Positions 20,304 through 21,177 of a DNA stretch of 64,000 nucleotides are shown here, piece by piece; position 1 is the stretch's first letter; the number at the start of each line of letters is the position of its first letter. The position numbers and the translations under genes are program-made. Source of the DNA: Pseudomonas sihuiensis (GTDB lineage: Bacteria; Pseudomonadota; Gammaproteobacteria; Pseudomonadales; Pseudomonadaceae). The notes below the pieces were generated by a model that was not told where the DNA came from, did no database searches, and saw only the letters and a list, made by a program, of their open reading frames with translations. Location of the stretch: contig NZ_LT629797.1 of assembly GCF_900106015.1 (NCBI RefSeq), positions 4,154,001 through 4,218,000 on the forward strand. The letters are read 5' to 3'.

Positions 20304-20416
20304 GTCAGCGACGGCGCGACCTTTCATCCGAGCGGCCTGGCCATCTGCGGCAAAACCTATCCCGTGGGTCAACAACGCGCTAGAATGCGCGCCGCTCGTG
20401 GCCATGTCGGCTGCGG

Positions 20417-20451
20417 CAGTGGGTTCCCTCACCCCACTTCATGAAAAAGGA
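20417..20451 (+). ncRNA. likely preQ1-I riboswitch controlling yhhQ
   Basis: AGTGGG (20418-20423) pairs with CCCACT (20433-20438), closing a small loop TTCCCTCAC. An A-rich tail TGAAAAAGGA follows, and its GGA can pair with the loop TCC as the pseudoknot. This is the H-type layout of the compact preQ1-I aptamer. The tail contains the yhhQ ribosome-binding site (AAGGA, 20446-20450), so ligand binding would hide it. The downstream gene transports queuosine precursors, which fits. Confidence 0.72.
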
Positions 20452-20458
20452 CATCGAT

Positions 20459-21109
20459 ATGACCCTGATTCCTGCGTCGGTCAGTCGGCCCGTGCTGGCC
20501 GGCCTGATCGCCTTCCATATCCTCATCATCATCGCCAGCAACTACCTGGTGCAGCTGCCGATCACCCTGTTCGGCTGGCATACCACCTGGGGTGCGTTCA
20601 GCTTCCCGTTCATCTTCCTGGCCACCGACCTGACCGTGCGTCTGATCGGCAAGCATGCCGCACGGGTGGTGATCGCCCGGGTGATGCTACCTGCGCTGGT
20701 CGCCTCCTACGTGGTGTCGGTGCTGTTCCACGAAGGTGCATTTGGCGGCCTGTTGGCGCTGGGCGAATTCAACCTGTTTGTCTTCCGTATCGCCGTGGCC
20801 AGTTTCCTGGCCTACGCCTTCGGCCAGTTGCTCGATATCCAGGTGTTCGACCGTTTGCGGCAGATGCGCCAGTGGTGGGTCGCGCCGACGGCCTCGACCA
20901 TCCTCGGCAACCTGCTCGATACCTTCCTGTTCTTCTCGGTGGCCTTCTGGCGCAGCGACGATCCGTTCATGGCGGCCAACTGGGTGGAGATCGCCACGGT
21001 GGACTACGTGATCAAGCTGGCCATCAGCCTGATCCTCTTCGTGCCGCTGTACGGCATGCTGCTCAGTGCCATCGTGCGGGCGTTGCCGCAGCGTACCGCC
21101 ACGGCCTGA
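20459..21109 (+). CDS. yhhQ: queuosine precursor transporter YhhQ
   Basis: An inner-membrane protein (216 aa, about six hydrophobic helices) of the COG1738/YhhQ family, which imports preQ0/preQ1 for queuosine tRNA modification. The conserved FPFIFLATDL segment occurs near residue 47. I chose the ATG at 20459, which has AAGGA 8 nt upstream; an in-frame ATG at 20441 lies inside the predicted aptamer and is unlikely. It stands alone between an NlpC/P60 gene and a repeat, inserted within the ectoine block. Confidence 0.92.
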   Translation: MTLIPASVSRPVLAGLIAFHILIIIASNYLVQLPITLFGWHTTWGAFSFPFIFLATDLTVRLIGKHAARVVIARVMLPALVASYVVSVLFHEGAFGGLLALGEFNLFVFRIAVASFLAYAFGQLLDIQVFDRLRQMRQWWVAPTASTILGNLLDTFLFFSVAFWRSDDPFMAANWVEIATVDYVIKLAISLILFVPLYGMLLSAIVRALPQRTATA

Positions 21110-21118
21110 GCTGAATCC

Positions 21119-21177
21119 GTAGCCCGGATGCAATCCGGGAATGTTCTGTGCCCTGCCCCGGATTTCATCCGGGCTAC
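21119..21177. repeat. dispersed inverted repeat (GTAGCCCGGATGCAATCCGG family)
   Basis: GTAGCCCGGATGCAATCCGG faces a CCGGATTTCATCCGGGCTAC arm. Other copies occur at 24688, 34091 and 41462. It is the only obvious transcript-ending structure after yhhQ. The rest of 21110-21309 holds no gene. Confidence 0.88.

Follow-up and report, generated by a model that had tools for sequence, protein, structure and literature searches.

A probable class I type III preQ1 riboswitch in the yhhQ leader of Pseudomonas sihuiensis, with two lineage-specific additions

The short leader of yhhQ in Pseudomonas sihuiensis raises the question whether this gene is controlled by an RNA structure that senses a queuosine precursor, as an earlier note on this DNA had proposed. 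The gene lies on the forward strand of the 64-kb stretch analysed here (the window) at 20459..21109 and encodes, read from the ATG at 20459, a 7-cyano-7-deazaguanine / 7-aminomethyl-7-deazaguanine transporter of 216 aa. A profile search with the 222-aa frame beginning at 20441 identified the product as YhhQ (NF008406, 338.7 bits, cut-off 252; also TIGR00697 and PF02592), which confirms that an importer of queuosine precursors is encoded. Directly 3' of yhhQ, at 21120-21176, we observed an inverted pair of the 20-mer TAGCCCGGATGNAATCCGGG, which has 212 exact copies in the genome, many of them as facing pairs, and which we take to be a REP-type palindrome.

From position 20418 the leader reads AGTGGG, TTCCCTCAC, CCCACT, a linker and AAAAAGGA, followed by the ATG at 20459. 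The arms AGTGGG (20418-20423) and CCCACT (20433-20438) form the hairpin P1 (20418..20438, on the forward strand like all features below) around the loop TTCCCTCAC (20424-20432). The last loop base, C20432, is the presumed ligand-reading base, its position being matched to the crystal numbering of the E. coli homologue (PMC10622847; this and the other papers are cited here from excerpts). P1 is followed by L3 (20439..20448), which consists of a variable linker (20439-20443) and an A-tract (20444-20448), and by the Shine-Dalgarno (SD) sequence AAGGA (20447..20451), in which the GG at 20449-20450 is followed by A20451 and which stands 8 nt from the ATG. The 6-bp stem, the C- and T-rich loop, the A-rich tail and the SD described in the earlier note are all present in the window sequence. 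Taken together with the comparisons below, we consider it very probable that positions 20418-20450 are a class I type III preQ1 riboswitch that switches off yhhQ translation.

Riboswitches of this subtype are known upstream of yhhQ in gamma-proteobacteria (PMC10622847), and the subtype was defined from 293 sequences, nearly all from Pseudomonadota (review PMC11625349). With the E. coli yhhQ type III switch (PDB 8fza; PMC10622847) our leader shares a letter-identical core of 15 nt, GGGUUCCCUCACCCC, as well as the A-tract, the AAGG of the SD and the same gene downstream. The E. coli leader differs in its outer P1 pairs (ATT/AAT, as against AGT/ACT in P. sihuiensis), in the sequence of the L3 linker, which has 8 nt there, and in having no hairpin flush upstream that is comparable to the hairpin P0 described below. 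Its linker, GGTTAATC, agrees with that given in PMC10622847 for the RNA that was crystallised. In the numbering of that paper C14 is the specificity base, C9-G30, C10-G29 and U11-A28 are the partners of P2, and A27 lies at the ligand. Mapped onto the P. sihuiensis leader, C9-C10-U11 correspond to 20427-20429, A13 to 20431, C14 to 20432 and A27-A28-G29-G30 to 20447-20450, so that the presumed P2 would join A20448-G20449-G20450 to U20429-C20428-C20427.

Several sequence characteristics of type III are found in this leader. P1 is capped by three G-C pairs (20421-20423 with 20433-20435), which are GC in 53/53 aligned rows, an invariance that is in part due to selection because these rows, unlike the 104 YhhQ-selected loci described below, were found with or filtered by the core. 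The short pyrimidine-rich loop UUCCCUNA is followed by the specificity C (together 20424-20432), as in E. coli, and the variable linker by conserved adenines, of which type III has 4-5 (here AAAAA, 20444-20448), with a spacing of 6-12 nt between the CCCC of the core and the A-tract in 89 distinct leaders. The position upstream of yhhQ in a gamma-proteobacterium likewise agrees. Type III switches are further characterised by a stoichiometry of about 1:1 with preQ1 and by a repression of translation that depends on this ligand. Types I and II of preQ1-I (RF00522; B. subtilis queC, T. tengcongensis) share the H-type pseudoknot, the cytosine specificity base and the A-rich L3 (PMC11625349), but differ in their larger, purine-containing loops and in acting through partial SD occlusion or transcription termination, and RF00522 is unmatched here. 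The preQ1 classes II and III also combine preQ1 sensing with translation control (PMC11625349), yet they form larger HLout pseudoknots, and no Rfam family reached its gathering score in the window. Different bacteria have yhhQ under various preQ1 riboswitch classes (PMC5372724).

The earlier note had proposed a search with RF00522 as a check on its riboswitch and had counted a missing match, together with a missing ligand response, against it. No match to RF00522 (gathering score 39 bits) was obtained in the window, the leader or the genome, nor did any of 4227 Rfam families reach its gathering score in the 64-kb window. However, the E. coli yhhQ locus is equally blank, with nothing at E<=10 from the 4227 families of Rfam release 15, and B. 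subtilis is the only one of 14 control genomes, E. coli among them, that RF00522 matches. The silence of Rfam therefore says nothing against a type III switch; the expected family match failed to appear, while the refutation attached to it does not follow. As RF00522 is absent both here and in the E. coli type III locus, we file the leader under type III and not as an RF00522 match. A match of the leader to the osmY sRNA (11.5 bits, cut-off 46.9, E 3.7) was discarded as noise.

Within the genome the switch appears to be a single copy. A search of the window for TGGGTTCCCTNACCCCA-N(2-24)-AAAAAGG gave a single match, and 0/100 shuffles contained the motif; across the 5.48-Mb genome the core GGGTTCCCTNACCCC is found in exact form only upstream of yhhQ. 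When up to two mismatches were allowed, 19 places were found (the exact one and 18 with two mismatches) against 23 for the reversed-pattern control, so that only the exact match stands out. The whole-genome pattern search gave no further exact core that would indicate a second gene with the switch in P. sihuiensis. The stability of P1 is ordinary (z +0.67), 141/200 shuffles folding at least as well, and chance is ruled out through conservation rather than through folding energy. As a side observation, the sequence GGGTTCCCTCGCTCC occurs five times in the genome (L157, L160, L162, L164 and G000:C1:5247378) and also in L010; it is apparently a repeat unrelated to the switch.

In order to follow the leader through its relatives, loci were selected by YhhQ, namely those of 24 of the 149 sampled genomes of the genus (YhhQ at E<=1e-20) and of the best 80 of 344 relatives, the other 264 being more distant and left out. 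In all 104 loci of this set (24 + best 80 of 344; 94 distinct leaders) the core is followed within 60 nt by AAAAAGG, and AAAAAGG itself, which includes the start of the SD, is invariant among them; the two collections overlap, and 104 is not a number of independent species. On the evidence of sequence, the family, gene, mechanism and start codon of the earlier note all stand. Only 24 of the 149 sampled genus genomes have YhhQ at E<=1e-20, and each of the 24 bears the switch. A pattern-only set of 37 loci was made up of 30 of the 33 core places in the order and of 7/7 core-plus-tract places in the class, with two places shared by both parts, that of the window itself and another in G220, and with several genomes recurring in the 149-genome sample. 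The A-tract is present at 35 of these 37 loci, all 35 upstream of YhhQ, and the two loci without it do not lie upstream of YhhQ. The core is present in at least 32/293 genomes of the order, and the core-plus-tract pattern in at least 7/369 genomes of the class (the window's own counted), exact patterns making both counts lower bounds. Totals of distinct leaders (94, 89 and 93) differ throughout since stretches of different length were compared.

P1 shows compensatory changes. The covariation alignment contained 53 of 55 distinct core rows, L108 and L109 with their long L3 inserts having been dropped, and gave a P1 covariation score of 0.317 against a shuffled mean of 0.069 (0/500 shuffles as high), with both sides changed in 39 cells against 9.8 in shuffles (0/500). 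The three inner pairs are invariant in the 53 rows, all of them selected to contain the core. Moving outward, the next pair is U-A in 39 rows, A-U in 6, C-G in 3, U-G in 1 and other in 4, and the following one A-U in 28, G-C in 11, U-A in 11, C-G in 2 and other in 1. The sixth pair is formed in only 18/53 rows, which means that P1 often has 5 bp. Measures that count pairs or pair types showed no excess over shuffles (314 and 211 of 500), because few P1 pairs are free to vary. The sequence, its conservation, the covariation of P1 and the gene context are established directly for this leader. Among the variants, L088, L137, L141 and L142 have an extra C between the loop and the 3' strand of P1, giving a 10-nt loop; they are out of register, were scored as unpaired at one P1 pair and may have a binding pocket of altered register. 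L108 and L109, from the same order, have a type III switch upstream of yhhQ with a long insert in the L3 linker that looks capable of forming a hairpin.

One detail of the earlier note has to be shifted. It had paired the GGA of the SD with the loop, one register off the crystal structure, in which CCU (here 20427-20429) pairs with AGG (20448-20450) (PMC10622847). A pairing of GGA with UCC is further disfavoured by the base after GG, which is A in 68, T in 16 and C in 5 of 89 distinct leaders. A single sentence in the excerpted text of PMC10622847 does have 5'-GGA-3' forming P2. The P2 partners (U11-A28, C10-G29, C9-G30) are complementary and invariant, and without variation covariation cannot address P2.

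The start codon of yhhQ is likely the ATG at 20459. A second ATG at 20441..20443 lies inside L3 in the same reading frame and is probably not the start. Of 89 distinct leaders, 15 have ATG and 20 have ACG directly before AAAAAGG, the remainder having other triplets, so that ATG is not conserved there and 20441 is disfavoured as a start. The distance from GG to the first downstream ATG or GTG is 7-8 nt in 79/89 distinct leaders (8 nt in the window), which is in line with the earlier note's preference for the downstream codon. The upstream ATG is in frame in 14 of the 15 cases, so that it could conceivably serve as an occasional start within the clade.

We propose the following mechanism. Without ligand, P1 would be formed, the A-tract and SD would be exposed and yhhQ would be translated from the ATG at 20459. 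Upon binding of preQ1, its Watson-Crick face would pair with C20432, the tail would fold back so that A20447 contacts the ligand, and A20448-G20450 would pair with U20429-C20427. This P2 pairing would bury the AAGG of the SD and block the ribosome, and once preQ1 is sufficient, import via YhhQ would be cut by the switch. The ligand contacts, the P2 register and the repression are carried over from the E. coli homologue, for which a preQ1 KD of 58 nM and a 6.1-fold repression of a reporter with an EC50 of 291 nM have been reported (PMC10622847), and we infer by this analogy that they are at work in the P. sihuiensis strain. The P. sihuiensis genome also encodes QueF and QueC, and the cell can therefore probably make preQ1 itself without import.

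Other readings of the leader were weighed against this mechanism. The fold could be the same while the lineage responds chiefly to preQ0 or to some other 7-deazapurine, a thought that gains some appeal from E. coli YhhQ, which transports preQ0 and reportedly prefers it over preQ1 (PMC10622847, PMC5372724). The E. coli type III RNA with its identical core prefers preQ1 by ~130-138-fold (PMC10622847, PMC11625349), and every conserved loop position is the same in P. sihuiensis and E. coli, which makes a different ligand very improbable. We give slightly less credence still to a leader that does not sense a metabolite and is chiefly targeted by a protein or small RNA, or is merely a structure for mRNA stability or standby. 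An extra hairpin kept beside P1 and the reported membership of E. coli YhhQ in the PurR regulon (PMC5372724) would fit such a leader, but the ligand-binding E. coli RNA has the same loop, specificity base, A-tract and SD, and these elements are also conserved in lineages without that hairpin. That P1 is simply a chance hairpin upstream of yhhQ, as its stability no better than that of shuffles might suggest, is the least probable of all and is refuted by conservation: the motif occurs in 0/100 shuffles and in 104/104 relatives (24 + best 80 of 344), and P1 covaries. The preQ1-responsive type III switch remains by far our preferred reading, and the leader is largely an ordinary member of this known subtype to which two lineage-specific elements, P0 and a promoter 13-mer, have been added.

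P0 is a GC-rich hairpin at 20391..20417 (20391-20395 with 20413-20417 and 20400-20403 with 20409-20412) that abuts P1 with zero spacer. It is present in both the MFE and the centroid structure of the window's leader, and an alternative pairing appears when a shorter piece is folded. The whole-leader fold has a z of -0.96 and 31/200 shuffles are as stable, which makes stability alone weak evidence for P0. In Pseudomonadaceae a GC-rich hairpin often precedes P1, its arms differing between species yet pairing, for example GCTTTC/GAAAGC in L019 and GCTGTTC/GAACGGC in L023. When the 3' halves were exchanged among 27 diverged Pseudomonadaceae representatives (drawn from 112 loci with 71 distinct pieces), the mean rose from -9.07 to -7.57 kcal/mol (sd 0.42), and 5/10000 permutations were as low; a variant of the same test gave 3/10000. 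Both runs draw on one set of leaders, crudely cut into halves, one with 26 representatives and the other with 27. In the run with 27 the constraint on 3'-end pairing had no effect, and what is scored there is the best hairpin anywhere in the 26 nt preceding P1, whether it abuts P1 or not. No effect was seen in 26 representatives of other lineages (6233/10000).

The hairpin is not universal even within the family. A z<=-1 was reached by 15/27 Pseudomonadaceae representatives against 5/26 of the others, leaving 12 of the 27 short of it, and no hairpin was found in leaders such as L014, L021 and L074. With the -10 box a mere 15 nt before GGG, L021 and L072 have no room for P0; the box of L074, 7 nt before GGG, is probably mis-assigned. 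P0 may act as a stem that stabilises the 5' end, or may extend P1 coaxially. A repressor operator is less likely, as the arms pair while their sequence differs.

Upstream of P0, and reaching into it, we found the -10-like box TAGAAT (20381..20386) of the presumed yhhQ promoter, followed by a GC-rich discriminator GCGCGCC (20387..20393), together the 13-mer TAGAATGCGCGCC (20381-20393). A consensus scan of the yhhQ leader gave no full sigma-70 promoter and no good -35. The box is found in 93/93 distinct leaders of the YhhQ-selected loci (24 + best 80 of 344), with that of L074 probably mis-assigned, and a GC-rich discriminator (>=6 of 7) in 91/93, GCGCGCC itself being present in 74/93. The 13-mer has 11 copies in the genome (reversed control 0), of which nine lie 226-549 nt before a 16S gene, spread over four rRNA operons, one before a tRNA Glu/Gly cluster and one before yhhQ. 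The looser pattern TANANTGCGCGCC has 23 genome sites (reversed control 3), namely the 11 copies of TAGAATGCGCGCC, one site at a tRNA Val/Asp cluster and 11 at what appear to be protein genes. Ten of these 11 were tested with NCBIfam: TcdA and SmpB scored above cut-off, a pseudouridine synthase resembling RluE and a U32 protein resembling TrhP fell short of the equivalog cut-off, and the other six were GcvT, an acyltransferase, a response regulator and three proteins that matched nothing at 1e-30. Across four further Pseudomonas genomes TANANTGCGCGCC occurs at 68 places (reversed control 7), and the 30 loci examined of these were a mix of 16S, tRNA, one yhhQ and ordinary genes. The exact 13-mer thus points to stable RNA, and the looser class is mixed.

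In the literature searched, as far as the excerpts reach, we found no description of this leader switch in Pseudomonas, of its upstream hairpin P0 or of its promoter; P0 and the promoter 13-mer are accordingly additions for which no earlier description was found. The sole mention of 'Pseudomonas' in the excerpts of PMC10622847 is a reference title, and those of a 2026 paper on the related Ectopseudomonas guguanensis have PreQ1 only as a biosynthetic pathway and mention riboswitches only as guanidine-I.

According to our analysis, the likely start codon of yhhQ is settled, and a switch is identified in a lineage that a standard Rfam search leaves unannotated; Rfam release 15 likewise missed the E. 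coli representative of a riboswitch subtype whose structure is solved. GC-rich discriminators mark promoters controlled by ppGpp/DksA. We tentatively posit, as a possibility more doubtful than not, that Pseudomonadaceae have a two-layer leader in which a stable-RNA-type promoter couples the importer mRNA to tRNA synthesis, P0 stacked on P1 tunes the switch or protects the mRNA, and preQ1 trims translation. The importer mRNA would then follow tRNA synthesis under stringent or growth-rate control, and the import of tRNA-modification precursors would be matched to tRNA output. If the promoter element and P0 are functional, they would provide a testable link between the production of tRNA and the supply of the precursors for its modification.
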